Part shown: positions 12,663-47,288 of the stretch, in pieces
Layout of the letters: each line of letters begins with the position of its first letter
How positions within the stretch are numbered: position 1 is the first letter of the stretch
Source of the DNA: a virus
Reading direction: 5' to 3' (one strand)
Length of the DNA: 58,656 nucleotides
Virus record (IMG/VR): IMGVR_UViG_3300007512_000042
Coordinates: 1 to 58,656 of that record
Position numbers and translations under genes: made by a program
The notes under the pieces: model-generated
The model's database searches: none
The model's input: the letters and a program-made list of their open reading frames with translations, nothing else
What the model was told of the DNA's origin: nothing

Positions 12663-12671
12663 TTTAGAGTG

Positions 12672-12677
12672 TATAAT
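12672..12677 (+). promoter_or_regulatory. -10 element upstream of the small membrane-protein gene
   Basis: TATAAT (12672-12677) lies 10 bases before ATG 12688, the same geometry as the other promoters here, but no good -35 is found at 16-18 bp spacing. Confidence 0.4.
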
Positions 12678-12687
12678 ATTATTAATT

Positions 12688-12885
12688 ATGGAAGCTCTAA
12701 AAGGCAAAAAGACTTATTTTACCGCTGGCGCAGCGGTTTTGACGGCTCTCGGCGCATATTTCGCTGGAGAGGTCGATCTGACGGTTACAATACAGGCCGT
12801 TTTCGCAGCATTGATGGTAGTATTTTTACGCCAAGGGGTTACATCTGAGGCCAAAAAGGGCGCTGAAGCACCCAAGGAAGGTTAA
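12688..12885 (+). CDS. Small two-helix membrane protein, holin-like
   Basis: 65 residues: short basic start MEALKGKKTY, a hydrophobic stretch about 9-26, an acidic turn EVDL, a second hydrophobic stretch about 31-46, then a charged tail SEAKKGAEAPKEG. This layout is common in phage holins and small phage membrane proteins. There is no lysin next to it, so a lysis role is only a suggestion. Confidence 0.6.
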   Translation: MEALKGKKTYFTAGAAVLTALGAYFAGEVDLTVTIQAVFAALMVVFLRQGVTSEAKKGAEAPKEG

Positions 12886-12887
12886 TT

Positions 12888-13136
12888 ATGTCTGCAGGAA
12901 CAAGTGGTAATTCACCTTCTGGACCCGAGGCCACAGGTCCGGTTGATAGTCCAGACGCAACAGGCCCAGATTCAGGTTCTTGTGTAGGAGATGGCAGTGG
13001 CTCTACTGGTCCGGCTCCTGACGCAACAGGCCCAGATTCAAGCGGTGCAGCCGGAGAAACTAGTGGCCCTATCATAAGTGACGATAGAGATGCGGCAGCT
13101 GCGGCACCACGCCCCCTCCCTAGTCATAGACATTAA
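12888..13136 (+). CDS. Low-complexity Gly/Pro/Ser/Asp protein with DATGP repeats
   Basis: 82 residues; a Shine-Dalgarno-like AAGGAAGG ends about 8 bases before the ATG. Built from EATGP, DATGPDS (twice) and GSTGP units, ending in an Ala/Pro/His tail. No folded domain visible. The same motif returns in the 13629 gene, which suggests a shared disordered linker or interaction tag. It could be a structural or decoration component; function unknown. Confidence 0.6.
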   Translation: MSAGTSGNSPSGPEATGPVDSPDATGPDSGSCVGDGSGSTGPAPDATGPDSSGAAGETSGPIISDDRDAAAAAPRPLPSHRH

Positions 13137-13138
13137 TC

Positions 13139-13384
13139 ATGGCAGCTAACACTACACCATGTCAAGTTAACAGTGCGACAACTATTGCTGACCCGGGCTC
13201 TAATACCGATGGTTTTGGAGTCGTCACAAAAAGAAATATTTATATTGTCGCTGCTACCGCTAATTTTACAGCTAACGGTGTGGCTTGTGTACCCGGAAAC
13301 GTTAATTTTTCCAATAATCCCTTTTTGGTGACAGGGGCTGTTAGCGGGGCTACAGTTGGTACTATTTGGTATTACATTCAGTAA
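13139..13384 (+). CDS. Small beta-rich hypothetical protein (81 aa)
   Basis: Starts two bases after the previous stop. Alternating hydrophobic and small residues (NIYIVAATANFTANGVACVPG, in two strands) suggest an all-beta fold, as in small virion decoration proteins, but no family is recognised. No signal peptide. Confidence 0.6.
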   Translation: MAANTTPCQVNSATTIADPGSNTDGFGVVTKRNIYIVAATANFTANGVACVPGNVNFSNNPFLVTGAVSGATVGTIWYYIQ

Positions 13385-13587
13385 TGCCACTGCCAACAAA
13401 GCGAACTGACGAACCTCGCGATAAGTTTATATCTCGTTGTATGAGTGACGAGATGATGAACGCGGAATTCAAGGACCCCAAGCAGCGCGCGGCTGTTTGT
13501 AATAGTCAATTTGAGCGTCGTAAAAAAAGTAAAGGTACAGCTAGTTGGGATGATGTGCGCCAAGGAGATATTCTAGGTATTATATAA
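13384..13587 (+). CDS. Conserved-type small phage protein with RCM...QR.AVC motif
   Basis: 67 residues from ATG 13384 (TAATG overlap). The segment KFISRCMSD...EFKDPKQRAAVCNSQ is a pattern I know from short phage proteins and the tails of head-maturation proteins, with conserved Arg-Cys-Met and Ala-Val-Cys. Function unknown. Last gene before a new promoter. Confidence 0.65.
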   Translation: MPLPTKRTDEPRDKFISRCMSDEMMNAEFKDPKQRAAVCNSQFERRKKSKGTASWDDVRQGDILGII

Positions 13588-14729: not shown

Positions 14730-16010
14730 ATGCCCAACTTAAGGGAATACATGGAAGAAGAAAATAAAAAAAACATGAGCAACCTAGAAAATTTACCAGA
14801 TGGTGTAGACGAGCTTTCGCCCTCTCCCCAAGAAGAGTTTATAGACGAGGCCACAGACGAGGCCACAGACGAGGCCAGCTTTGAGGCTGAGGCGTTTTCA
14901 GATGATGACCTAGGGGTAGATATCCCTGATATTCCGCTGCCCTCAGAAGGGCCTCCAGAGGCTAATATAGAGGATAAGTTTGATTCAGCTTATAAATTTG
15001 CAGTCGTAGGGGTGGGTCAAGGAGGCTCTCGGTTAGCAGAGACATTCTGGAAGCTAGGATATAGGCGTGTAGCGGTTATCAATACCGCTGCCCAAGACCT
15101 AAAATCAATCAAGGTTCCTCGAGAAAATAAGCTTCTAATAGGGGGAGAAGGGGCCGGAAAAGATCGTAAGGTAGCTGAAGATATTTTTCAAGAGAACCGG
15201 GAAGATATCCTTGATTTTTTAAAGCGTACTTTCAAAGGTGGGTTCGATAGAGCTTTGGTGTGCATTGGTGCAGGTGGCGGAACGGGAGCCGGGGGAGGTC
15301 CTGTTGCAGTAGAAATAGTGCATGATCTTTGCCAAAGCTATAACATAGAATCCTCTGATGCTGATGCTCGCGTAGGTGCTGTAGTAGCTCTTCCTACTCG
15401 AGCAGAGGGCTCGCGCGTACAACAAAACGCCAAACAAACAGCAGACATACTAATCAAACAGTCTCAAGCGGGCACTTTATCCCCCCTTGTCATTTTAGAT
15501 AACGAGCGTATCAAACAAATTTATCCTAAATTGTCAGTCAATCAGTTTTGGAGTACCGCTAATACAAGTATCTGCTCTTTATTTCATTTATTTAATAAAA
15601 TAGCATGCCAAGATTCCCAATATACAGCTTTTGACAAAGCAGACTTGGATACTATTTTTTCATCAGGCATTATCTCTTTTGGGGCAGTCCCTGTTTCAAA
15701 AGGGGACGACGGTATAGAGGAAACCGATATCAGTTATGCAGTTCGTGACAACCTTAAGAAGAATATTCTGGCGAACATTGAAGTATCCACAGGAGATGTA
15801 GCCGCATGCGTTGTAATCGGAGATCGCAAGACCCTCGACAATACGGCGCAGGAGAGCCTAGAACATGGCTTTGAGCAGCTTAGTCGTCTTTTGGGGTCTG
15901 GTTCGACAGTCCACCGCGGCATTTACCATACTCCTAAAAAGGGGCTTGTGGTTTACACTATTATAGGAGGTATTAAAGCCCCTGAACAGTTGTTTGATTA
16001 TTCCAAATAA
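14730..16010 (+). CDS. FtsZ/tubulin-like GTPase
   Basis: 426 residues. GTPase core from about residue 88: T1 loop VGVGQGGSR (93-101), tubulin signature GGGTGAG (182-188), and a T7-type loop FDKAD with D302 and D305, the residues that complete the GTPase site of the next subunit. A ~85-residue acidic N-terminal extension holds three DEAT/DEAS repeats. Phage tubulins (PhuZ, TubZ) form filaments that position DNA or capsids; which role applies here is unknown. It lies 12 bases after the SSB gene. Confidence 0.9.
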   Translation: MPNLREYMEEENKKNMSNLENLPDGVDELSPSPQEEFIDEATDEATDEASFEAEAFSDDDLGVDIPDIPLPSEGPPEANIEDKFDSAYKFAVVGVGQGGSRLAETFWKLGYRRVAVINTAAQDLKSIKVPRENKLLIGGEGAGKDRKVAEDIFQENREDILDFLKRTFKGGFDRALVCIGAGGGTGAGGGPVAVEIVHDLCQSYNIESSDADARVGAVVALPTRAEGSRVQQNAKQTADILIKQSQAGTLSPLVILDNERIKQIYPKLSVNQFWSTANTSICSLFHLFNKIACQDSQYTAFDKADLDTIFSSGIISFGAVPVSKGDDGIEETDISYAVRDNLKKNILANIEVSTGDVAACVVIGDRKTLDNTAQESLEHGFEQLSRLLGSGSTVHRGIYHTPKKGLVVYTIIGGIKAPEQLFDYSK

Positions 16011-25092: not shown

Positions 25093-26002
25093 AAAGCCAA
25101 TATCAATCAACCACTATTTTCCCGAAGGCGAAGATTGGCGAACCTATCCTGCGATCAAGGTAACCACTGCCGACGCGTTCCATTATTGCGCTATGCCCTT
25201 GGAATTCGCTATGTACCGTGGTATCGAAAAGGTGTGGAGCTGCGAGCTTGGCGACAACTCTTGGGCGACCTTCGATGACACTGAGATGTACAACGCCGTT
25301 TTAACTGATCGTAACGGGAATATAATAATGCAAAAAAAATGGAACCCTCTAGAGGATGGAGATTTTTTTTATCAGGCTCTTTATCTTTATTGCATGCGTC
25401 TCACCAGTGAGGGTAAAAAACCTAAAGGTATCGCGATAGGAACCCATGATGGAGCATTTGGAGAATGGGCCCCTGTAGTACAAGAGGATTTAACTGATGC
25501 TTGCTTGGTTGAGGCGTCGCAACCTCAATTTGCGAACCTTGTTCGCAATTATCAAAGGTACCCCAACGTTAAATTGGTCAACCAGTTGATTACCACAGAA
25601 GGGCAAGATATAGAATTTTTCGAAGGAGGAAATGGTTACACTAATTCTGTTGTAGAAAGAGTCATAAGAGACTGGGAAACGCAGGAAATCAAAAGCTCTA
25701 TAAGATCCTCTTGTTCAATTAATGATTTAATTGGCAATTACATATCCAGCGGAGAGCGACTAGATTGGCTTCATTTAGATGTTGAAGGATATGATGCGGA
25801 TTTGCTAAGAGCTCTCAAGCAACCGCTCCCGCCTTTTATTATTTTTGAAAATCACCCTTCTCACCACAAGGAAGAACTGGAGTATAATGAACAACAAAAA
25901 AAACGGATTCAAACTTATCTGAGGGATAGCGGGCACGACATAGTATCTTCAGGTGTTTCTTGCTTAGCAACCCTCCCCTATGAAGTTCAAAACATTAAAT
26001 GA
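25079..26002 (+). CDS. FkbM-family methyltransferase
   Basis: 307 residues. SAM-binding region GIAIGTHDGAFGEWAPVV (about 122), CLVEASQPQFANLVRNY, VKLVNQLITTEG, then LDWLHLDVEGYDADLLRAL and FIIFENHP are the ordered FkbM motifs. FkbM enzymes O-methylate sugars or polyketides; here a sugar is likely. The 80 N-terminal residues are an extra, unrecognised domain. Confidence 0.78.
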   Translation: MNGTKKPISINHYFPEGEDWRTYPAIKVTTADAFHYCAMPLEFAMYRGIEKVWSCELGDNSWATFDDTEMYNAVLTDRNGNIIMQKKWNPLEDGDFFYQALYLYCMRLTSEGKKPKGIAIGTHDGAFGEWAPVVQEDLTDACLVEASQPQFANLVRNYQRYPNVKLVNQLITTEGQDIEFFEGGNGYTNSVVERVIRDWETQEIKSSIRSSCSINDLIGNYISSGERLDWLHLDVEGYDADLLRALKQPLPPFIIFENHPSHHKEELEYNEQQKKRIQTYLRDSGHDIVSSGVSCLATLPYEVQNIK

Positions 26003-29000
26003 AAATTAAAGCACACTGCCCCTTTTTAGGTCGTACCGGGTATAATGCCCATGCTCGAGGCTTTTTTACTGCTTTAAGCGAGTTAATTGACTTGCGGGTT
26101 GACAACTACACATGGTGCGATGATACTGATAACTATCTTACCGACCATCAAAAACGTATTATTTCCGAGGTGACCTTAAGAGCTCCCGACGGAGAGCAAC
26201 AGTATCCTCCCGACTGGAAAGAAGAAATTGAAAGCTTTAAGTATGATGTAGACATTGTACTACACGAACATTGTCATCGACACTTCTGGCGCGAATACAC
26301 GAAGCCAAAAATTGCCTATACTGTATGGGAGACAGATCGGATGAATGATGATTTTTTTGAACGTCTTTTAGAATATGACCAGCTTTGGGTTCCATCTGAA
26401 TGGCAAAAAGAATGCGCTATAGGGCAAGGTTATCCGTGCGATCGTGTTAAAGTGGTGCCTGAGGCGGTAGAACCTGATTGTTTTCCCGATAATGCAATTG
26501 TGCCGGATGATTCAATATTTACATTTTGTGTGTTAGGGCGCTGGGACCACCGTAAATCAATTACTGAAATTTTGGAATGTTTTGTTGAGCTTTTTGGAAA
26601 CAATCCTAAGGTGCAGCTTATTGCCTCTATTGATAACCATTATGCTGAAGATGGCCTATCCACCGAAGAAAGGTTTAAAAAAATGGGGTGGGGTAATATA
26701 AAAAATATTATATTAAAATCTTTTCCCTCTCGCCCCGAGTATATCGATATTCTACGGCGCAGTCATGTTTTTTTATCCTGTGCGCGTTCGGAAGGATGGA
26801 ATATTCCCCTTATCGAAGCCATGGCATGCGGCGTACCATCCATCTATAGCGATTGCTCTGGCCAAACAGAATTTGCATCTGGGAAGGGTATTCCAATTCC
26901 TATCTTAGGGAAGGAGAAAGCACGCATTGGCCATGGTGGTATTGCTAGCAAATGGACCACTGAGATGCCGGGCCACTATTTTACCCCGGATTTTACACGT
27001 CTTAAAGAGAAGATGCGGTTTTGTATAGACAATTACGCTACGCTTAAGACCAGAGCTCTCAAGGAATCAGTAGAGATTAGATCGAAGTATACTTGGGCAA
27101 ACGCCGCCCTCATTGCGTTGAAGAACTTAGAAAACTTTGCCCCAAAAACCCAAAAGGTCAATGTATTAGTACACGCTGATGATGAGTATTTAAAATATGC
27201 TAATATATGTATAGAGTCTATTAGAAAACATTCTGGTTATAATGTTATTTTATATGGGTATGATACCCATTTTAAAGGAAAATTTATTCCCCCGAACACT
27301 GAAGTTCGGCGGTTGCGAAAATGGCCCCTATCAAAAAACGGTCGTAACTTAGGCGTCATGAGTTGCCGCGTTTCTATGTGTTTAGATGCGCTCGAGCAGG
27401 ATCCTAATGATTTATTTATTATGGTGGATTCCGATATGGTTGCAATGAAAGACCTGCGTCCCTTTTTTAGAGAGCAATTCGATAGATTAGAAGATTACCC
27501 CCTTTGCATTACCTATAAGCACGACAATCTTATTCACTCTAGGCTAGAGCCAGATGGCACCACAATCCAAAAAGGGCACGGTGATGAAGCGGCCTCTGTT
27601 TTTGGTGTTGAACCTAGAGGGGTTGCCTTCAATCATCCCATTGATTTTACTATTGGTCATGGGGTTGTTATTTTTGATAAAAAATCAGCGCCATTCTTCT
27701 CAGAGTTGCTGGAGCTTTCCTTACGGAGTCTGAAGGAAGAGCTTGTTGACCTCATTGATGATAAGTCTTTTGAATCAGAAAGAATCCACAATATTTTGAT
27801 GTGGAAATATGGCTTTACACAACACTTACCTCTTTCATGGGTTTCTAAGGATGAAGATAATGATTTTCTTCAACCAGACCTGAAAACGTACACGGACGCT
27901 GGATTTGATGTGGTTTACACTCATCAAGATAGACGTTCTTATGACATTGCCCCAGAGCAACTTTTATTTTTGCATGGCAGATCTTTTCCCCCTCTCTCTT
28001 CCCAATTAATGATTATCGCTCATCCTGACGACGAAACTATCTTTGGGTTCTCTGAGTTAGATGGCGACACTGATTGGAAAATAGTGTGTGTTTCTAGCGA
28101 TAATCGTGAGGATGATTTCCATAAGGCGATGGCATTTTATGGGATTAAAGACTACGAGATGTGGGGTTTTAACTCTTCGGTTATGGAAGCATTTCCTTCT
28201 GACTCATTAGATAAAAAAATAGAACATTTAATCAACAGCCAACAATGGAAAAAAGTAGTTACCCACAACCCATGCGGAGAGTATGGTCATATTCAGCATA
28301 AAAATGTTTTTGATTCGGTCAAAAAATATTGTGATAATTTTTATATTTTTTGCAAATCTGCCTCAATATTAGGGCCCCACGAACTTCAGCGCAAACAGGA
28401 GGCTTTAAAAATCTACAGCTCAGAGGATATCATCCCTCAACTCCAACAGCTTAACGGAGACTGGTATATTATGCCCGACATGTCTACCAACTATATAGAG
28501 CATGGTACTGTAGAATTATATAAACCAAGCAGACATACCACCCCTTTTATTCACTGTTGGGAAAAGACCCCCGATTATTCGCCGGTACCCTTTCATAAAA
28601 AAAAGGAGTTCCCCTCTTTTGTCCCAAAAATTAAAGTGCACTGTCCTTTTCTCGGACACACTGGCCTCAGCGCTTCCGCGCGCGGGACGTTCACAGCATT
28701 AAGCAGTATTGTTGATCTGCGCGTTGACAACTATACGTGGTGCGATGACCGTCACAACTACCTTACTGAACACCAGAAAAAGATTATTTCTGAAGTGACC
28801 TTGAAGGACCCTCAAGACAATTATATCGAGAAACAGCACCCACCTGAGTGGAAGAAAGAAATAGAAGATTTCCAATACGACATAGATATCGTGTTTCATG
28901 AGTACGATCACGACCACTTTCTTAAGAAGTATAGTAAGCCAAAAATTGCCTACACCGTATGGGAGACAGATTTATACGCTGCTCACTTTTTTAAAACACT

Positions 29001-30603
29001 TCTTGAATACGACGAATTATGGGTTCCATCTAAATGGCAAAGAGAATATAGCATAGCGCAGGGTTACCCGGCTAGTCGCGTTAAGGTAGTGCCTTTTGCT
29101 GTAGAGTCCGATTGTACCCCCAGTTCTGATGGTGAGTCTTTAGATGATTCAGTTTTTACCTTTTGTTTGTTTGGGCGTTGGGATTATCGCAAATCTACCA
29201 CGGAGATTATCCGATGTTTTGTTGAATTGTTTGGTAACAACCCAAAAGTACAACTAATAGCTTCTATTGATAATCCTTTTGCCCTTGATGGGCTTTCGAC
29301 GGAAGAGCGTAAAGCAAAAATGGGGTGGGGGGAGGTTGATAATATTATTCTTAAGTCTTTCCCCAATCGTAAAGAATATGTCAAAATTATTCAAGAAAGC
29401 CACGTATTTTTATCTTGTGCACGTGCAGAAGGGTGGAATATACCTTTATTAGAAGCGATGGCTTGCGGGACTCCTGCTATTTATAGTGATTGTTCTGCTC
29501 AACTAGAATTTGCCCAAAATAAAGGTATTCCGGTTCGTGTCTTAGGAAAGGAGAAAGCTGGAGTAGGTATAAGGGAAGTAGTCAGCCGATTTACTGCGAA
29601 CCTTCCCGGCCATTACTTTAGTCCGGATTACGAGCACCTGAAAAGCCAGATGCAGTATTGTATAGACAACTATAAAAGTTTAAAAACAACAGCCCTCAAG
29701 GAGTCCGCCGAACTTCGTCAAAAGTATACGTGGCAACATACTGCCCGCATTGCCCTTGACCATTTAGACAGTTTTTGTAAATCTCAGGCCATTAATATTC
29801 CCAAACCAAACCCTTCCCCTGCTTCATCCAAATTTATGAAAAAGAAGATATTCTTTCCCCTCATTACCTACGGAGGTATGTGTAATACTGAATTCGCTAT
29901 TGGTGCTATGGGTACCCTTTTGCGGATTCAGCAAAGTTCTGATATTGATATGGTGGTTTCTTCCATTGTCTTTGAGAGTTTGATTAGTCGGGCTCGAAAC
30001 GCTTCTGCTGCTTGGGCGCTTTCGTCAGATTATACCCATTTATTGTTTATTGATTCTGATATTCATTTTGAGGCAAACGATGTCTTCAAACTAATTGAAG
30101 CCGACAAAGATGTGGCGGTGGGTGTTTACCCTAAAAAATATTACAATCGCCACAAAATGGAATTTTTAGCCAAGGACGCACCTCATGTTTTTAACGATAA
30201 AAATGAATGGAGAGCCCTTGCGACGGATTTCTCTAGCGAATGCGGCGACAAGGCTTTAGATAAGGCACGGCAAGGCGAAATATTCACGGTAGATTATGCA
30301 GCCACAGGTTTCATGCTTATTAAAACTGATGTCTTTAAAAAAATTATTGACAAGCGCCCTGACCTGAAGTATACTAATGATGTTGATGGCTACATGAGTG
30401 CCGGAGACAACTTTTATGACTTTTTCACAGTGGGTGTAAATCAATCAAATAAAAAATATGAAAGCGAGGACTACGGCTTTTGCCAGCTCTGGCGTTCGGT
30501 CGGCGGACAAATCCACGTTATACCCTCTATCAATCTTACCCACACGGGAAGAAACCATTACCCCGGAAACATCCAAGCTCAAGCTCAAATGTTTCATAAA
30601 TAA
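25999..30603 (+). CDS. Giant five-domain glycosyltransferase/deacetylase (1534 aa)
   Basis: Domains in order: GT4 copy 1 (1-385; E-x7-E as EGWNIPLIE), GT-A domain with IMVDSDMVAM (about 385-660), PIG-L-type deacetylase with AHPDDE (about 674-679) and GHIQH (about 660-860), GT4 copy 2 (877-1260; EGWNIPLLE), and a C-terminal GT2-like domain with FIDSDIHF and VDYAATGFMLIKTDVF (about 1275-1534). The two GT4 copies are very close even at DNA level, so an internal duplication surrounds the other two domains. It could build an oligosaccharide stepwise and de-N-acetylate it. Start overlaps the FkbM stop by 4 bp. Confidence 0.85.
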   Translation: MKIKAHCPFLGRTGYNAHARGFFTALSELIDLRVDNYTWCDDTDNYLTDHQKRIISEVTLRAPDGEQQYPPDWKEEIESFKYDVDIVLHEHCHRHFWREYTKPKIAYTVWETDRMNDDFFERLLEYDQLWVPSEWQKECAIGQGYPCDRVKVVPEAVEPDCFPDNAIVPDDSIFTFCVLGRWDHRKSITEILECFVELFGNNPKVQLIASIDNHYAEDGLSTEERFKKMGWGNIKNIILKSFPSRPEYIDILRRSHVFLSCARSEGWNIPLIEAMACGVPSIYSDCSGQTEFASGKGIPIPILGKEKARIGHGGIASKWTTEMPGHYFTPDFTRLKEKMRFCIDNYATLKTRALKESVEIRSKYTWANAALIALKNLENFAPKTQKVNVLVHADDEYLKYANICIESIRKHSGYNVILYGYDTHFKGKFIPPNTEVRRLRKWPLSKNGRNLGVMSCRVSMCLDALEQDPNDLFIMVDSDMVAMKDLRPFFREQFDRLEDYPLCITYKHDNLIHSRLEPDGTTIQKGHGDEAASVFGVEPRGVAFNHPIDFTIGHGVVIFDKKSAPFFSELLELSLRSLKEELVDLIDDKSFESERIHNILMWKYGFTQHLPLSWVSKDEDNDFLQPDLKTYTDAGFDVVYTHQDRRSYDIAPEQLLFLHGRSFPPLSSQLMIIAHPDDETIFGFSELDGDTDWKIVCVSSDNREDDFHKAMAFYGIKDYEMWGFNSSVMEAFPSDSLDKKIEHLINSQQWKKVVTHNPCGEYGHIQHKNVFDSVKKYCDNFYIFCKSASILGPHELQRKQEALKIYSSEDIIPQLQQLNGDWYIMPDMSTNYIEHGTVELYKPSRHTTPFIHCWEKTPDYSPVPFHKKKEFPSFVPKIKVHCPFLGHTGLSASARGTFTALSSIVDLRVDNYTWCDDRHNYLTEHQKKIISEVTLKDPQDNYIEKQHPPEWKKEIEDFQYDIDIVFHEYDHDHFLKKYSKPKIAYTVWETDLYAAHFFKTLLEYDELWVPSKWQREYSIAQGYPASRVKVVPFAVESDCTPSSDGESLDDSVFTFCLFGRWDYRKSTTEIIRCFVELFGNNPKVQLIASIDNPFALDGLSTEERKAKMGWGEVDNIILKSFPNRKEYVKIIQESHVFLSCARAEGWNIPLLEAMACGTPAIYSDCSAQLEFAQNKGIPVRVLGKEKAGVGIREVVSRFTANLPGHYFSPDYEHLKSQMQYCIDNYKSLKTTALKESAELRQKYTWQHTARIALDHLDSFCKSQAINIPKPNPSPASSKFMKKKIFFPLITYGGMCNTEFAIGAMGTLLRIQQSSDIDMVVSSIVFESLISRARNASAAWALSSDYTHLLFIDSDIHFEANDVFKLIEADKDVAVGVYPKKYYNRHKMEFLAKDAPHVFNDKNEWRALATDFSSECGDKALDKARQGEIFTVDYAATGFMLIKTDVFKKIIDKRPDLKYTNDVDGYMSAGDNFYDFFTVGVNQSNKKYESEDYGFCQLWRSVGGQIHVIPSINLTHTGRNHYPGNIQAQAQMFHK

Positions 30604-31215: not shown

Positions 31216-32818
31216 GTCTGTTTTAAGTTTTGCGGCCGCGCATCACGATTCTAATTTATCCGTGTATGTAAAGAATCAGCTCTATACTATAGAGCTGGAA
31301 AGAATTTACGGCAATCGATACTTGGCGTTTCAAACATGTTCAGAGGCCGAACAACAATCCCTTTTAATCTCTTTAAAGCAAATCCTAAAAGACAAAGGCC
31401 TTCTTGTACCTTCTTTTGATGTGGGTTTGTTTGATTGGGAAAGTACAGCAGAAACGATTCAAAAGTTTTGTGAGATTTTTAATGTTGTAAAAGTTTATCA
31501 AAAAGGAGATGACGCCACGTTCCATCATAGAGCTCATGCCGCGGGAGCTTTTTATTCCAGTGGTTTCGATGAAGCTTTGGTTTTTAGCTATGATGGAGGG
31601 GGGGAACCTGACGGTACTATTTGTGTCTACGACCTTAAAAAACCTGATCCGGATTTTACTCAACTTAACCCCTTTGCACTGCGATGTTTGACGACCAAAT
31701 ATTGTTCTTTATCTTCTTTTATGGAAGAAATTAGAGGTTCGCAAAAAAATCAAGATTATCTTCATCGACGTTTTGATCAAGTGGACCATGGGTGTTCGGG
31801 TAAGTTTATGGGATTATCGGCGTATGGTGTTTTTGATAAGTTTATGTTTGATGCCTGCAAAAAGTGGTTGCAGGTAGGTTCCCTTAATCCGTATGATTCT
31901 CATTTTTGGGGAGAGATAGGAACTCATTTTAAAAATGGAGTGCAGGGTACAACTTCCTATAATTGGGCTTTTAACATGCAACGTGCTTTTGAAGCTGATT
32001 TTTTAGAGCTTTTTGTTAAGTTTTTTGATAAGAGCAAACATAAAAACGTTTGCTTAACGGGAGGGGGTGCCCTCAATGTTGTGCTCAACGAGAGGCTGAG
32101 TAAGACTTATCCAAATGTTAATTTTTTTGTTTCCCCTTCTCCCGGTGATAGCGGTTTATCATCTGGCATGATAGTCCGTTATCTCAAAAACCCGCTTGTT
32201 TCCGAATCTATGTATACGGGCTGTGAAATTTTAGACAAAGGGGCTTTGCCATACATTTTAGATCATCGAGCGTGGAAGAAGGCTACCCCGAAACTCATAG
32301 CAAAGGAATTAACAAGAGGAAAAATTATTGGTATCTGTCGAGGTGACAGCGAAATAGGCCCCCGTGCATTAGGAAATCGAACTATATTGGCGGATCCCCG
32401 AAGTCACCAAGCTAAAGATATAATCAATGATAAAGTTAAATTTAGAGAATGGTATCGGCCGTTTGCTCCTGTATGTAAAGAAGATAAGGCATCAATTTTT
32501 TTCGAAACGTCTGATAATGCGTGCTACAAGTATATGTCTTTTAGCCCTCAGGTGCGAGAAAAATATCGAACAGTATTGCCCGCAGTGACCCATGTGGACG
32601 GATCCTCTCGATTACAAACCGTTTCTGCACAGCAAAATCAGTTTATCTATGACATATTAGATGAATTTGAGAAGCTGACGGGTATTCCCGTCTTGGTTAA
32701 CACTTCTTTTAATACTAAAGGAAAAGCTATTTTAACTCGATATCTCACCGCTATGCAAGTCTTAGATTCAACAGGACTTGACAGCGTGGTGCTAGAAGGC
32801 TATTATATTTATAAATAA
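31208..32818 (+). CDS. Carbamoyltransferase (NodU/CmcH family)
   Basis: 536 residues from ATG 31208 (GTG 31202 is the alternative). N-terminal Kae1-like part: FAAAHHDSNLSVYV, HHRAHAAGAFY, FSYDGGGEPDG, CLTGGGALNVVLNERL, SPSPGDSGLSSG. C-terminal YrdC-like part: GRSEIGPRALGNR-type sequence (GDSEIGPRALGNRTILADPR), YRPFAPV, LVNTSFN. It transfers carbamoyl from carbamoyl-phosphate, via carbamoyl-AMP, to a hydroxyl, probably on a sugar of the phage glycan. Complete length for the family. Confidence 0.9.
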   Translation: MPKSVLSFAAAHHDSNLSVYVKNQLYTIELERIYGNRYLAFQTCSEAEQQSLLISLKQILKDKGLLVPSFDVGLFDWESTAETIQKFCEIFNVVKVYQKGDDATFHHRAHAAGAFYSSGFDEALVFSYDGGGEPDGTICVYDLKKPDPDFTQLNPFALRCLTTKYCSLSSFMEEIRGSQKNQDYLHRRFDQVDHGCSGKFMGLSAYGVFDKFMFDACKKWLQVGSLNPYDSHFWGEIGTHFKNGVQGTTSYNWAFNMQRAFEADFLELFVKFFDKSKHKNVCLTGGGALNVVLNERLSKTYPNVNFFVSPSPGDSGLSSGMIVRYLKNPLVSESMYTGCEILDKGALPYILDHRAWKKATPKLIAKELTRGKIIGICRGDSEIGPRALGNRTILADPRSHQAKDIINDKVKFREWYRPFAPVCKEDKASIFFETSDNACYKYMSFSPQVREKYRTVLPAVTHVDGSSRLQTVSAQQNQFIYDILDEFEKLTGIPVLVNTSFNTKGKAILTRYLTAMQVLDSTGLDSVVLEGYYIYK

Positions 32819-32819
32819 G

Positions 32820-33041
32820 ATGAAAGAACAAATACTTAACACTATCGCCGTACATAACGTAAGCCAATACCACCATGCTAAAACTAACCTAGATAATTAC
32901 TTAGCTAACCCTGCTGCTATTGGAGAGCATCCTGACATTGTCGCTGAGGCGATTAAATTGGTGGAATCTATGGAGGCGGCAGAATCCAACCTTCAAACAT
33001 TAAACGCAGCCTATGGAACCGATTACACAACAGCAATGTAA
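32820..33041 (+). CDS. Small helical hypothetical protein (73 aa)
   Basis: Starts one base after the carbamoyltransferase stop. Amphipathic helices (AEAIKLVESMEAAESNLQTL). No domain recognised. Confidence 0.6.
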   Translation: MKEQILNTIAVHNVSQYHHAKTNLDNYLANPAAIGEHPDIVAEAIKLVESMEAAESNLQTLNAAYGTDYTTAM

Positions 33042-33222: not shown

Positions 33223-33977
33223 GCAATATTTTAATTTCAACCATCGTTAGAAACCGCGGTGAAACCCTTCGTGGGTGGCATGATCAACTTGAATCGTTGG
33301 TTTGTTTAGACGAGCATAATCAATACTATTTAAGTATTTATGAAAATGATTCCGAAGACAATAGCGTCGCGCTGTTAAATTCTTTTGATTATTCTTTTTG
33401 TAAGGATTACTGTCTAAAAAGCGAAACGCTTAACACCAAATATTACTATCCTCCTTTTGAGGACTACGGAACGGAGCAAGGACACTTTAGTAAAGTTGAT
33501 AGAGTCAACAATTTAGCAGCAGCGAGAAATAAAAGTATTTTTGAGTGTGGTTTTTTGGGAGACACCGACTATGTTCTTTGCATAGAACCTGATATTAAAT
33601 ACAGCCCACAAGAATCGCTACCGAGCGTCATCAACAAGCAACACTACGATATTATTTCAGCTAAAAGCATTTTCACCAGCACTCGTTATGAGTCGCATCC
33701 TCTGTATGATGGGTGGGCTACCAGAAAAACCGAACATGAGGAAAGCTGGGATTTTTCCATATCTTTAGAGGGTATGATACCAGTTTGGTCAACGTTTAAT
33801 TGTTTTTGTATGTACAAGTCCCTTCCTTTTAAACAAGGGGCCGCTTTCGGAGGGTTTAATAAACGGCTAGATAAGCCTGACTGTGACACGGCTGTTATAT
33901 GTGAAGAGTTCCGTGCTTTAGGGTACCATAATATGGTAATGAATTGTGAGTTTGAGGTCTTACAAGAGCTTGAATAA
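33219..33977 (+). CDS. GT69-like (CAP59-type) glycosyltransferase
   Basis: 252 residues. RNRGETLRGWHDQLESL, YYLSIYENDSEDNSVALL, FSKVDRVNNLAAARNKSI and YVLCIEPDIKYSP match the alpha-1,3-mannosyltransferase CMT1/CAP59 pattern, with NDSEDN and EPD as likely nucleotide-sugar/metal residues. Acceptor unknown. Overlaps the aminotransferase-fold gene by one base (TAATG). Confidence 0.7.
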   Translation: MSNILISTIVRNRGETLRGWHDQLESLVCLDEHNQYYLSIYENDSEDNSVALLNSFDYSFCKDYCLKSETLNTKYYYPPFEDYGTEQGHFSKVDRVNNLAAARNKSIFECGFLGDTDYVLCIEPDIKYSPQESLPSVINKQHYDIISAKSIFTSTRYESHPLYDGWATRKTEHEESWDFSISLEGMIPVWSTFNCFCMYKSLPFKQGAAFGGFNKRLDKPDCDTAVICEEFRALGYHNMVMNCEFEVLQELE

Positions 33978-35143
33978 TGAAGTGGCCGTTAAATATTTCT
34001 CATTTTACTTTTTTAGATAGATTAAAAATTTGTTTGTTCTTTTTGAATCCTAAAAAAGTTTGGACGATGGGGGCAGAAGTAGAGTCTTTGGAAAAAGTGA
34101 TGGCCGAATACACTGGGGCTCGCTATGCGGTATTTACTTCTAGTGGTTCGACGGCGAATAGCCTAATAGCGATGAGCCTAAAAGACCTTAAAAAGGCTGA
34201 ACTTTGGTCTCATGATAAATGTGAAATTGTTTTTCCTTCTACTACGTGGGCCACGTCTGTCACCCCTTTTATAAGAGAAGGTTTCATTCCTAAATTTATA
34301 GACGTGTGTCCCCATGACCTCTCTCTTGATTTGCACCTACTAGAGCAGTATCTCTCAGAACACTCAAGAAAGGTAAGGTGTGTTTTCTTGACGTCGCTTT
34401 TAGGGTTTACCCCAAATATAGATGCAATAAAAGCAATATCCCAAAAGTACAAAGTGGAAGTGATGCTTGACAATTGTGAAAGCCATTTAGGTAGGTTTCA
34501 AAACGAAAACATAAATTCCTTTTTTACCTCTACTACCAGTACATATTTCGGGCATTTGGTTCAAAGCATTGAAGGAGGGTTTGTTTTCACCAACAGCAAA
34601 AAAGAGTACGAATATTTTGTTATGGCACGCAACCACGGTATGACGCGATCCTTGAAGAGCCCTGAGCCCTATTTAAATCCTTTGGTTGATCCGCGGTTTG
34701 ATTTTTACACCAAAGGAAGCAACTTTAAAAATTCGAACGTTAATGCGCTGATCTGTAACTTGAATTTTCAGAGAGTAGATAAGTACATTAAAGCGCGAGT
34801 ACATAAATATCAACTCTTTAAAGAAGGTATGGCTAAGATACTTGACTTCCCAGAAGAGTCCTCTTCTAAGATGCACGTTCCTTTTTCTTTACCAATAATA
34901 CCAAAAAAAGAATACCTTGATAAGGTACCTCTTTTCAAGCAATACTGCGAATCCCATTCCATCGAAATGCGCCCCCTCGTTTCAGGCAACCTTCTGACAC
35001 AAACAGCATTTAAAGAATATGGTAATGGGGCAGACTTTAAGTATAGCACCTTCCTACATGACCATTGTTTTTACATAGGGTTGCATCCAAGCTTAAAAGA
35101 TAGCAGCATTAGAAAGCTATGCAAAGAATTTAATAAAATTTAA
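33977..35143 (+). CDS. DegT/DnrJ-family sugar dehydrase (E1/ColD-like)
   Basis: 388 residues of fold-type I PLP enzyme: FTSSGSTANSLIAMSL, EIVFPSTTWATSVTPF, FLTSLLGFTPN, MLDNCESH. Where aminotransferases have a Lys that binds PLP, this protein reads YFGHLVQSIEGG, with His in the catalytic position. That is the mark of CDP-4-keto-6-deoxyglucose-3-dehydrase (RfbH/E1) and GDP-4-keto-6-deoxymannose-3-dehydrase (ColD), which make 3,6-dideoxysugars. Which nucleotide sugar is used is unknown. Confidence 0.82.
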   Translation: MKWPLNISHFTFLDRLKICLFFLNPKKVWTMGAEVESLEKVMAEYTGARYAVFTSSGSTANSLIAMSLKDLKKAELWSHDKCEIVFPSTTWATSVTPFIREGFIPKFIDVCPHDLSLDLHLLEQYLSEHSRKVRCVFLTSLLGFTPNIDAIKAISQKYKVEVMLDNCESHLGRFQNENINSFFTSTTSTYFGHLVQSIEGGFVFTNSKKEYEYFVMARNHGMTRSLKSPEPYLNPLVDPRFDFYTKGSNFKNSNVNALICNLNFQRVDKYIKARVHKYQLFKEGMAKILDFPEESSSKMHVPFSLPIIPKKEYLDKVPLFKQYCESHSIEMRPLVSGNLLTQTAFKEYGNGADFKYSTFLHDHCFYIGLHPSLKDSSIRKLCKEFNKI

Positions 35144-35146
35144 TTT

Positions 35147-35707
35147 ATGAACGAAATTAACGGTGAATTTGGCCCAAATAATCCAAGATCTTTAAATATT
35201 TTTATTCCACAGATTTCAGATCAAACGGTGGTAGATGATTGTATTTTGCCATTGCTTCAAGAGGCTATTGCTGAGGGTGAGTTCCTTTACCCTTATTATA
35301 TAGCGCCAAACCAGACTGAGAAAGCGTCTTTGGTCTTTGGTTATCTTTTTTCCGCGTGTGTTCGAGAAAAAACTTTTGCTTTGGCTTTAGATGGGAATAA
35401 TCCCGTGGGGTTTGAGGCTTATTTGCGTAGTCCATTTTGTGATTATTTTAAAACTCCTAATATCTATGATGGTTTGCTCACCTTTGTTTCAAAATCGTAT
35501 CGAAGAAAAGGGGTATCCACTAAGTTACGTAAATTTTTATTGAACACAGGAGGGTTTAAGAGAGGCGACATATTTCGCTTTAGCGTTAAAAGAGACAATG
35601 CGGCAGGGTACTTATCAGTAGAGAAACTTGCAAAAGAGCTTAACATTAATATGGTAGAAACCGGTGCTAACTATGAAGGCCAAGTCACTCACCAGCTTGA
35701 TATTTAA
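35147..35707 (+). CDS. GNAT-family acetyltransferase
   Basis: 186 residues. Central YDGLLTFVSKSYRRKGVSTKLRKFLL is the acetyl-CoA-binding motif A (RxxGx[GAS]). Preceding strand NPVGFEAYL and following FRFSVKRDNAAGYLSVEKL are typical GNAT elements. May acylate the amino group exposed on a sugar (inference from context). Confidence 0.72.
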   Translation: MNEINGEFGPNNPRSLNIFIPQISDQTVVDDCILPLLQEAIAEGEFLYPYYIAPNQTEKASLVFGYLFSACVREKTFALALDGNNPVGFEAYLRSPFCDYFKTPNIYDGLLTFVSKSYRRKGVSTKLRKFLLNTGGFKRGDIFRFSVKRDNAAGYLSVEKLAKELNINMVETGANYEGQVTHQLDI

Positions 35708-36296
35708 GGAGTTAACAGGGAAAGAGATTTTACCTGTTCAAGAGGCGTTTCTTGATGAAGTAGCCCCTATTGTTGCTGATTTTAAATATGATTTGCTTGA
35801 ACCTCCTAGCTCTGCCTCGGTAGCTCTTTCTGTTGCTTGTGACAAAGACCTTTATCAAACCCTATCTAACAGTATGGGTTTATGGGGCGCTAACCATTTT
35901 GTTTTTTCCGATGTTGTTCGTCAATGGCGTACGGGGGATTATCCTGATCTCATAGCGGGGATGGGTCACCCTAAGTTTAAAGGGGGCGACCCTCGTACAG
36001 CTGAAATAGAGGGGTTAGCCGTTAAACACAATATTTCCCTTTCTTCGTTAGGATCTTTTAAACAGTTTGGGGCTCAGAGAGGGCTATATGTTAATTTAGC
36101 TGGGTGCTTAGGGATGATATTATGGGACATGGGGTTCACGGAGGATAATGTAGATTTTTTTCCTATGGTATGGAGATTTTTGGGACTGACGAAGCTTTAT
36201 GGTTTTCTTAATGATGAAATTAAATTGGGAAGTGGAATAGATTGTATTAAAGAAGCTTACCGCAAGGTTTATCCAGATCGTTATGATACTCACTAA
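35673..36296 (+). CDS. Citrate-synthase/citryl-CoA-lyase-like protein
   Basis: 207 residues from ATG 35673, overlapping the GNAT gene by 35 bp. GLWGANHFVFSDVV (about 70-83) matches the G..GGAN.AV segment, and MGHPKFKGGDPRTAEIEGLAVKHN (about 97-120) matches GFGH..YK..DPRA, keeping the catalytic His and the DPR arginine. Citrate synthases are about 400 residues, so this is a shortened single-domain relative. It could join or cleave a small acyl-CoA, perhaps supplying an unusual acyl group to the neighbouring GNAT. Confidence 0.62.
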   Translation: MKAKSLTSLIFKELTGKEILPVQEAFLDEVAPIVADFKYDLLEPPSSASVALSVACDKDLYQTLSNSMGLWGANHFVFSDVVRQWRTGDYPDLIAGMGHPKFKGGDPRTAEIEGLAVKHNISLSSLGSFKQFGAQRGLYVNLAGCLGMILWDMGFTEDNVDFFPMVWRFLGLTKLYGFLNDEIKLGSGIDCIKEAYRKVYPDRYDTH

Positions 36297-37023
36297 TAGT
36301 TCTCAATTTATAGGACAACTTGTTTCCGACTTAAAGCCTATTGAGGAAACGATCTCAAACCCTTATTTTTCTTATACTTTAGGCTTTAATATTAAACATA
36401 ATGAAATTCGTCAATGCAAACTTTATATTCGTTTTTTTGATCGTGACGATTCTTTTTTAAAGTTTTTTGAAATTTTCACAGATGCAAACATTAAGGCAAT
36501 GGCTATTCATGATTTTCGCCACGCGGAAGACATTGCTTTTAAGAAGAGCGCATTAGGCTTTAAAGGATTTACCATTGGCCTTGTGAGAGATTTTAATACT
36601 AATAGAACAGGGTGTGGATGGGGGGCTCGTGCCACAAGCATTATTAGTGGTCCTTATTTTTATGGCTATAGATTTTTTGATGATTTCCTTTTCAGAAAAA
36701 TGTACAAATACGTCACACCTAATCTACGCTTTTTAAAGCTGCCCTTCATGACGGAGATGGTGGAAATACAAGAGTCCTTTGAGGAAAAAGAGCACAAATA
36801 TTGCTTGTGCCCCACGATAACAAGAGATAATTTAAGTGAAATTAGTCGATCTATAGAGGGAAACTTAAGCCCTTCGTGTAAATTATACCATAACGAAATT
36901 ATAAAGCTTAACCCCGCATTGACGCTGGTTAACATGGGGATAGGGCCTAACGAAGAAAAATTGTATTATCATAATTTTAAAAAATCTAACAAAATAAAAC
37001 ATTACTTTTTAAACGATGAATAG
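36283..37023 (+). CDS. Unknown protein next to the citrate-synthase-like gene (246 aa)
   Basis: Overlaps its upstream neighbour by 14 bp and the spanin-like gene by 8. Alternating strands such as FSYTLGFNIKHNE, CKLYIRFFD and FTIGLVRDF suggest a beta-rich fold; Cys pair CLC near 177. No signal peptide or membrane span. I do not recognise the family. Placement suggests a step in the glycan/acyl pathway. Confidence 0.6.
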   Translation: MILTNSSQFIGQLVSDLKPIEETISNPYFSYTLGFNIKHNEIRQCKLYIRFFDRDDSFLKFFEIFTDANIKAMAIHDFRHAEDIAFKKSALGFKGFTIGLVRDFNTNRTGCGWGARATSIISGPYFYGYRFFDDFLFRKMYKYVTPNLRFLKLPFMTEMVEIQESFEEKEHKYCLCPTITRDNLSEISRSIEGNLSPSCKLYHNEIIKLNPALTLVNMGIGPNEEKLYYHNFKKSNKIKHYFLNDE

Positions 37024-37444
37024 CTATATTTTAGGTGCAGCGTTGGGGGTCACCCTCTTAATATCCGCGGTGGGGTATTTTTTTTATAAAAAGAACGAAA
37101 AGCTGAAAGCTGAACTCACCACAATCAACCTTCAAGTAGAAAGCTACGAGAACAGGCTAGGACAATTGACCCAAGCGGTTGATGACGCCCAAAAAACAAT
37201 GGACACTCTACACGAACGCAATAACGCTATTGAAAAAGCTGCGGGCGATCGCAAAGAAGAGCTTGACAAAGTTCTCAGAACGCATAATATTGACAGGATC
37301 GCCGAGCGCAAGGCCTCCCTCCTTACTAGGAAGGTTAACAGGGCCAGCGCTAACGTGATGAAAACATTCGAAACGTTAACCGACCCTAAATATGTTTACA
37401 CCAAACCAATCGATTTCGGCGGTAGCGCCATGGAAGAAAATTAG
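37016..37444 (+). CDS. Inner-membrane coiled-coil protein, i-spanin-like
   Basis: 142 residues. One N-terminal transmembrane span (about 5-24, ILGAALGVTLLISAVGYFF) followed by a long periplasmic coiled coil (LKAELTTINLQVESYENRLGQ and on, to about 90). This is the shape of Rz-type i-spanins that fuse inner and outer membranes at lysis. A second small membrane gene is embedded in its 3' end in another frame, as Rz1 is in Rz, but that one has no lipobox. Confidence 0.55.
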   Translation: MNSYILGAALGVTLLISAVGYFFYKKNEKLKAELTTINLQVESYENRLGQLTQAVDDAQKTMDTLHERNNAIEKAAGDRKEELDKVLRTHNIDRIAERKASLLTRKVNRASANVMKTFETLTDPKYVYTKPIDFGGSAMEEN

Positions 37445-45916: not shown

Positions 45917-46248
45917 TGAAATATCTTATTACATTTTTTTTGAGTGTGCTTGCGGTATCTGGTGTTACCTTTGAGCCAGATATGGAGGTAAAAATCAAGG
46001 GATTGGTTTGCCCGTCTTGTGCGATTGGAATTAAAAAAAATTTCCTCAAGCACAAACCTCAAGTTAATGCGGTTAAATTCGATACTCGCAAACAAGTAGC
46101 ATTGGTAGATTTTTTTGAAAACGAAAACAAAAGAATTTATTGGCTTAAAAACGAACAAATTATCCAACTGGTTAAGGATGCTGGCTACGAAGTCACCTAT
46201 ATTAAGAGGTTAGACGGCAGCAAACCCAACCGATACAACACACCATGA
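45916..46248 (+). CDS. Secreted heavy-metal-associated (MerP-like) protein
   Basis: 110 residues. Signal peptide (KYLITFFLSVLAVSG), then MEVKIKGLVCPSCAIGIKKNFLKH with CPSC, then VNAVKFDTRKQVALVDF and LVKDAGYEVTYIK: a full HMA beta-alpha-beta fold. Periplasmic metal binding is expected; unusual in a phage. It sits directly after a lipoprotein and before the UvdE-like gene. Confidence 0.75.
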   Translation: MKYLITFFLSVLAVSGVTFEPDMEVKIKGLVCPSCAIGIKKNFLKHKPQVNAVKFDTRKQVALVDFFENENKRIYWLKNEQIIQLVKDAGYEVTYIKRLDGSKPNRYNTP

Positions 46249-47288
46249 TAACAGGACTAATCTTAACCAAACACCCCAAAGGTGCTTCCTTTAAAACTTT
46301 GAGTCGCGCCCGTTTTTTAGATTTAAACAAGCGTGAGTTCAAATTAGGAGAGGAAACTCTTTGTGACCGCATTGCCCACAACTTAAACATTACTCATTCC
46401 ATTATTGAGGGTTGTTCTAAACAAGGCATTCAACATTACAGATTGTCACCTCTTTTATTCCCACTATTGAGCGATAACTCTCTTGACCTTAATCTGGCTA
46501 CCATTAAAGGGGCAAATCAGATTTTAAGTCTTATTAAAAAAATTGGAGCAACCGCAATAGAGAATAACATTAGCCTTTCCGCTTGCCCCCCCATTCTTAC
46601 TGCTACCTCATCAGAAGGATTAGCAAGTGATAATAGCGATAGCATCGTTAAGACGGTGAAGCAGTTAGACTTTTATGCCCACCTCTTTGACCTTATGGGG
46701 TTTCCTGACGACTATTCAAACCCAATCCATGTTTACCCTCACATGGCTTCTAAAGATGCCTCACAGAGCCGTTTAGAGGGCATTGTAGACCGTTTTTATG
46801 ACGGTATGGTCAGATGCAATGATAGCGTGATTAAGCGTTTGGTTGTGATGAATGAACGAAACTCTTGCTGGAATTGCATGAACCTCTTTGTTTACTTTCA
46901 TCAGTATATGGGGCATAAACATCGCCACATCATGCCATTGAGTTATGATAGCTTGCATGACGAAAAAAATGGCTCTGCCCTACAAGGCAATACGGTAACT
47001 GTTGCTCAAAATATAGATGCTTTCGCAAAGACTTGGCCCGATGATATTACCCCTGTTTTTCGGTGGAGTCACGATACCGATGATGCTCCCGACTATGAAA
47101 GAGACATTGTTTGGGAGTCGGAGAGAAAAGGCTTTACAATCGCATCTCAATCAAGTAAAGTAGTTACCAGCAAGAAGAAGGCAACCAAAAAGAAACCTCA
47201 AGCCAAACCAAGTGTTAAAAAAATTCTTAAAAAAATAGAAAAAACTGTGCCGAAATCTACAACATTCAATCACCTATATGGAGAATAA
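46245..47288 (+). CDS. UV-damage endonuclease UvdE-like
   Basis: 347 residues, ATGA overlap. LGEETLCDRIAHNLNITHSII and GIQHYRLSPLLFPLLSD match the UvdE N-terminus; RLVVMNERNSCW and IMPLSYDSLHDE match later metal-ligand strands (ENE, DxxH). The usual SxHPGQ segment is replaced by SACPP, so some metal ligands differ. UvdE nicks 5' of UV photoproducts. C-terminal Lys-rich tail KKKATKKKPQ is extra. Confidence 0.66.
   Translation: MITGLILTKHPKGASFKTLSRARFLDLNKREFKLGEETLCDRIAHNLNITHSIIEGCSKQGIQHYRLSPLLFPLLSDNSLDLNLATIKGANQILSLIKKIGATAIENNISLSACPPILTATSSEGLASDNSDSIVKTVKQLDFYAHLFDLMGFPDDYSNPIHVYPHMASKDASQSRLEGIVDRFYDGMVRCNDSVIKRLVVMNERNSCWNCMNLFVYFHQYMGHKHRHIMPLSYDSLHDEKNGSALQGNTVTVAQNIDAFAKTWPDDITPVFRWSHDTDDAPDYERDIVWESERKGFTIASQSSKVVTSKKKATKKKPQAKPSVKKILKKIEKTVPKSTTFNHLYGE

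Follow-up and report, generated by a model that had tools for sequence, protein, structure and literature searches.

A mobile phage module that pairs a GNAT-type acetyltransferase with a citrate synthase–like protein of altered active site

Results

Three overlapping genes in a virus record

The DNA analyzed here (the window) is a virus record of 58,656 bases, and the three genes of interest, which we refer to as the cassette, all lie on its + strand. The original prediction of three overlapping open reading frames at positions 35147–37023 was confirmed: the first gene overlaps the second by 35 bp, and the second overlaps the third by 14 bp. The first gene (35147–35707) encodes a predicted GNAT-type N-acetyltransferase of 186 amino acids, as judged from Pfam, from its homolog at locus L024, and from profile rank in record G003. 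The second (35673–36296) encodes a citrate synthase/citryl-CoA lyase–like (CS-like) protein that is 207 amino acids long when read from its ATG, with a GTG at 35664 also possible as the start; this assignment draws on NCBIfam, BLASTP, and profile searches and on the fold of an AF2 model. The third (36283–37023) encodes a 246-amino acid protein that was found only in the lineage of the window and of L010, another phage contig.

Immediately upstream, a gene for a ColD-like PLP enzyme of the DegT family (33977–35143, + strand) stops 3 bp before the GNAT gene; it belongs to the context of the window and is not common to L010. Downstream, a gene for an Rz-like spanin (37016–37444, + strand) overlaps the cassette end. 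The surrounding region also encodes glycosyltransferases, a carbamoyltransferase, and a 1534-amino acid protein (25999–30603) with glycosyltransferase and PIG-L domains. This fusion protein has an Anp1-like domain as well, and it contains two internally repeated glycosyltransferase units whose DNA is ∼70% identical; its L010 counterpart is 1211 amino acids long, the last domain being encoded there by a separate gene. Elsewhere, the window encodes a tubulin/FtsZ GTPase with a TubZ-like C-terminal domain (14730–16010, Pfam E value of 6.6e-15), which has a 45% identical homolog in the related phage G003, and the UV damage endonuclease UvdE (46245–47288, Pfam E value of 5.5e-11), whose L024 homolog adjoins the GNAT and CS-like genes at that locus.

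The cassette moves as a block and recurs in part in a distant phage lineage

Scans of IMG/VR with three motif patterns and a profile returned only four contigs, all of which contain the GNAT gene. One of them, L001, matches the window at 99.99%; it represents the same virus and was excluded as an independent carrier. With the window itself, the other three make four distinct carriers (the window, L010, L024, and L025). L010 has all three cassette genes, in an unchanged order and likewise overlapping by 35 and 14 bp. A block at window positions 35191–37017 (+ strand) is 87.6% identical, with one gap, to L010 positions 8030–9857. Identity drops abruptly at both ends of this block, to ∼70–73% in the flanking spanin and glycosyltransferase genes or to unalignable sequence; the fall to 73% at the spanin gene marks the right edge of the cassette. 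The neighbors differ on both sides, with L010 having a LicD-cytidylyltransferase fusion gene (L010 6976–8028) where the window has the PLP enzyme gene, and a sugar C-methyltransferase gene between the cassette and the spanin gene. The high identity of the block, its sharp edges, the weaker flanks, and the swapped neighbors argue that the cassette has been exchanged as one piece. A small open reading frame that comes after the carbamoyltransferase gene (32817–33041, + strand) is a conserved 225-bp stretch, 86.7% identical to L010, that starts the variable gene stretch in both contigs and may be a recombination anchor. Beyond the spanin gene, L010 contains three consecutive genes that appear sulfotransferase-like by eye (11526–13445).

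The three cassette genes are real and under purifying selection, because dN/dS between the window and L010 is ∼0.13 for the GNAT gene, ∼0.23 for the CS-like gene, and ∼0.11 for the gene of the 246-amino acid protein. In L024 and L025, a GNAT gene is followed by a CS-like gene with an overlap of 71 bp, at a different genome position and with no copy of the third gene. This pair adjoins genes for a dCMP deaminase and UvdE and lies outside the sugar-nucleotide cluster, and the replication and other core genes of these phages are ∼35–60% identical to those of the window phage. The view of the locus as a small module is thus borne out, as the three-gene block moves together and the GNAT and CS-like genes recur as a pair in a distant lineage; no relative was found in which these two genes are separated.

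When 84,980 bacterial and archaeal genomes were scanned for the 246-amino acid and CS-like proteins by a method that reaches close relatives only, no relative was found, and tblastn against isolate phages yielded no credible match to any cassette protein. Apart from the known loci, a looser GHP..DPR DNA pattern picked up only a 2-methylcitrate synthase (probably on a cellular stretch) and unrelated frames. One contig that matched the first DNA pattern (L005) contained no recognizable CS-like frame by eye and was set aside. We found no description of such a GNAT and CS-like pair in the literature searched.

Family and fold of the cassette proteins

The window GNAT scores 17.3 bits against Pfam PF00583, below the cut-off of 20.7, and its L024 counterpart scores 29.0 bits against the Pfam GNAT profile, which is above the cut-off. 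Both proteins contain an R-x-K-G-x-S motif. The similarity between the GNATs of the two lineages is weak (BLASTP E value of 3e-4, for a single pair), and when a profile of the window and L010 GNATs was compared with all G003 frames, the L024 GNAT ranked first, albeit weakly (E value of 0.01; runner-up 0.6).

The middle gene had been described as a shortened relative of citrate synthase and citryl-CoA lyase, and profile searches agree with this assignment. Taken alone, the window protein has a weak Pfam match (E value of 4e-4, below the cut-off), and it matches the NCBIfam citryl-CoA lyase family NF004868 with an E value of 8e-9. The L024 homolog, which is 27% identical to the window protein (BLASTP E value of 3e-27), passes the Pfam Citrate_synt cut-off (37.1 versus 27). 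Both proteins miss the NF004868 subfamily cut-off of 193 bits, at 34.9 bits for the window protein and 53 bits for that of L024. A profile built from the four phage CS-like proteins matches, among PDB sequences, the citryl-CoA lyase of Hydrogenobacter thermophilus (6hxp, E value of 1e-7), followed by ATP citrate lyase modules and then by citrate synthases. Structure prediction, which had been proposed as a test of the assignment, yielded a citrate synthase fold: the AF2 model is of moderate quality (pLDDT 66) and poor at the active-site loop (residues 72–101), and every top match listed by Foldseek and by VIA (with Z up to 12.1 for the latter) is a citryl-CoA lyase or a citrate synthase. From these sequence and model comparisons, the CS-like protein is assigned to the citrate synthase/citryl-CoA lyase superfamily, with the predicted fold of citrate synthase.

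The four phage proteins form one clade (support 90/89). In both sequence and fold, they are best matched by 6hxp and by the citryl-CoA lyase module within ATP citrate lyase, with which they share a small size, the lack of a long N-terminal domain, a GH-x-x-x-K-x-x-DPR motif, and Arg and Asn residues at the substrate/CoA site. The phage proteins differ in their shorter length, in having no loop after the first His, and in the Ala or Gly that takes the place of the catalytic Asp; in addition, their genes are linked to a GNAT gene, whereas that of citryl-CoA lyase is linked to citryl-CoA synthetase. Within NCBIfam, the phage proteins fit best to the plasmid-borne "citryl-CoA lyases" of NF004868 (PRK06224.1–5). 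The latter form a separate branch, and their gene neighbors encode a CoA-transferase, an acyl-CoA dehydrogenase, and HMG-CoA lyase, as in acyl-CoA catabolism operons, rather than a GNAT.

The third gene had been called unrecognized, and it remains so: searches of Pfam, PHROGs, NCBIfam, PADLOC, PDB sequences, phages, and plasmids gave no significant hit to its product. AF2, run with the two available sequences, did not predict a fold (pLDDT 34).

The CS-like protein lacks the catalytic aspartate

In an alignment of 16 proteins that includes Escherichia coli GltA, the residues corresponding to His99, Arg108, Asn141, and Arg168 of the window protein are invariant. All four phage proteins retain His75, His99, Arg108 (of the DPR motif), and Arg168. 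The first of these residues was placed by eye, where LWGANH aligns without gaps with LWGPAH of GltA; the automatic alignment is a few columns off at this point. The original prediction that the catalytic His and the DPR arginine are retained therefore holds, but it missed that the His/His/Asp catalytic triad is incomplete. The catalytic Asp is replaced by Ala143 (LNVDG versus lnlaG) in the window and L010 proteins and by Gly in those of L024 and L025. Ten sampled plasmid-borne NF004868 proteins have Ala, Thr, Ser, or Asn at this position, which indicates that members of the family without the Asp are spread more widely than phages. Since dN/dS for the CS-like gene is low both in the window/L010 pair (see above) and in the L024/L025 pair (∼0.08), loss of the Asp does not reflect decay.

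In the citrate synthase family, this Asp is the general base and is needed for enolization. Its loss speaks against an ordinary condensation of the citrate synthase type on an acyl-CoA, and it could mean that the CS-like protein has no catalytic activity at all. From the alignments and from what is generally known of this family, we take the lost residue (in the N-V-D-G motif) to occupy the position of Asp1026 in human ATP citrate lyase. When this residue is changed to Ala in the human enzyme, the module still loads CoA and unloads acetyl-CoA (PMC10115795). By analogy, a CS-like protein without the Asp could still bind CoA.

A possible acyl-CoA module

Taken together, these results identify a real, mobile, and conserved phage module that combines known folds with an altered active site; they do not establish that the system is of a new kind. 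The interpretation that we favor, to which we give somewhat less than an even chance, is that the GNAT and the small CS-fold protein form a mobile two-gene acyl-CoA module to which a third gene was added in one lineage. GNAT and citrate synthase families both use CoA, and the overlap of the two genes together with their co-inheritance argues that the products act jointly. The CS-like protein would bind a CoA thioester and a carboxylated partner and then cleave the thioester, in the direction of citryl-CoA lyase, with the enolate protonated by solvent; alternatively, it may hold an acyl-CoA and hand it on. The GNAT, translated from the same message of overlapping genes, would pass this acyl group on to an amine, probably one on a glycan or a related small molecule. 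For the window and L010, the genetic setting suggests a glycan or nucleotide sugar as acceptor, and the 246-amino acid protein may serve as an accessory of this one lineage, preparing the product or making use of it. Because the L024/L025 pair lies outside the sugar-nucleotide cluster, a role in glycan modification would not be general.

In a serious if rather unlikely alternative, the CS-like protein has no catalytic role: by analogy, it would bind CoA or acyl-CoA and, as a partner subunit, load or regulate the GNAT. All four phage proteins have Ala or Gly for the catalytic Asp, at the position that we equate with Asp1026, and the overlap of the genes points to a fixed stoichiometry of their products. 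Loading and unloading of CoA has itself been proposed as the task of the citrate synthase homology module in ATP citrate lyase. However, all four proteins also retain both histidines, the DPR arginine, and Arg168, which a mere scaffold would not need.

Sugar context and other roles for the pair

In the window and L010, the cassette is embedded in tight operons of sugar-modifying genes, which include the ColD-like gene in the window and the LicD-cytidylyltransferase fusion and C-methyltransferase genes in L010. In both, a PIG-L domain is encoded upstream, within the large glycosyltransferase protein. The PIG-L domain of the window is what the original prediction built on. In that scheme, the CS-like protein would make a special acyl group (here taken to arise as an acyl-CoA through condensation), and the GNAT would attach it to an amino sugar that the PIG-L deacetylase domain supplies. 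Apart from the loss of the enolizing Asp, this scheme is weakened by the other carriers, as no PIG-L domain was detected in G003 and G004 (two of the four carriers, whose records may be incomplete), where the pair lies beside the dCMP deaminase and UvdE genes. Nor is the adjoining PLP enzyme expected to supply an amino sugar. Its closest solved structure is ColD (2gms, E value of 2.6e-34), a GDP-4-keto-6-deoxymannose 3-dehydratase of the DegT fold family in which, as in the window enzyme, a His replaces the PLP-binding Lys of transaminases (tyfgHlvqsiEGG aligned on ssfysHhiatmEGG). With this His, the enzyme should remove a hydroxyl group rather than add an amine; the label "aminotransferase" for 33977–35143 is probably wrong, and the gene was rejected as an amino-sugar supplier. 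It is also a context gene, being part of the cassette in neither L010 nor L024/L025. The failure to detect PIG-L in two carriers and the nature of this neighbor leave the amino-sugar scheme as one guess among several, and we consider it improbable.

We regard as equally improbable a role in host metabolism or on nucleic acids, in which the CS-like protein would pair with or mimic host citrate synthase, or the GNAT would modify a nucleotide, protein, or tRNA. The dCMP deaminase and UvdE genes beside the pair in L024 and L025 are in keeping with such a target, but the sugar-modifying operons around the cassette in the window and L010 are not, and searches against defense families gave no match. 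A GNAT toxin–antitoxin or defense system was likewise not supported, with no match in PADLOC.

Chemistry of the aldol or Claisen type on a keto-sugar, by which the CS-like protein would place an acyl-CoA–derived carbon on the 4-keto group formed by the ColD-like enzyme to give a branched sugar, appears very improbable. It would fit the location of the ColD-like gene 3 bp upstream of the cassette in the window, the sugar C-methyltransferase gene directly downstream of it in L010, and the gene content of G003 and G004, which have a ColD-like ortholog, GDP-mannose 4,6-dehydratase, and thiamine diphosphate enzymes of a type that branches keto-sugars. Against it, the enolizing Asp is lost, the ColD-like gene is missing from the L010 fragment, and the pair and the ColD-like gene are far apart in G003 and G004. 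In G003, the ColD-like ortholog (48% identical) lies beside the GDP-mannose 4,6-dehydratase gene, a fucose synthase–like gene, and the thiamine diphosphate enzyme genes.

Finally, there is very little chance that the two genes are unrelated neighbors, because although phage moron genes are often packed tightly and the GNATs of the two lineages are only weakly similar, two lineages share the gene order and an overlap, with the genes at different places in their genomes, and the genes were transferred as one block.

Implications of a citrate synthase fold without its base

Proteins with the citrate synthase fold are textbook enzymes of central metabolism. A short, Asp-less form that is under purifying selection and travels with an acetyltransferase suggests that this fold has been reused beyond the making of citrate. 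If the acyl-CoA module proposed above is viewed at its most ambitious, it would be an undescribed phage pair in which a base-less CS-fold protein performs new acyl-CoA chemistry (for example, as a lyase or by carbon branching on a sugar or a carboxylated small molecule), coupled to a GNAT in a mobile, glycan-altering cassette; we think this unlikely, though worth stating. The pair would offer a compact genetic system for asking what the citrate synthase scaffold can do without its base, and the cassette would provide a way into any unusual acyl groups that phages put on glycans.

In the nucleotide-sugar cluster of G003 and G004, which contains the GDP-mannose dehydratase and ColD-like enzyme genes, the thiamine diphosphate enzymes are split into two overlapping genes (L044 825–2604 and L045 7615–8729). 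By eye, the enzyme of G003 is acetolactate synthase–like and that of G004 is transketolase-like. A nucleotide-sugar cluster with such enzymes possibly represents branched-sugar synthesis by phages.
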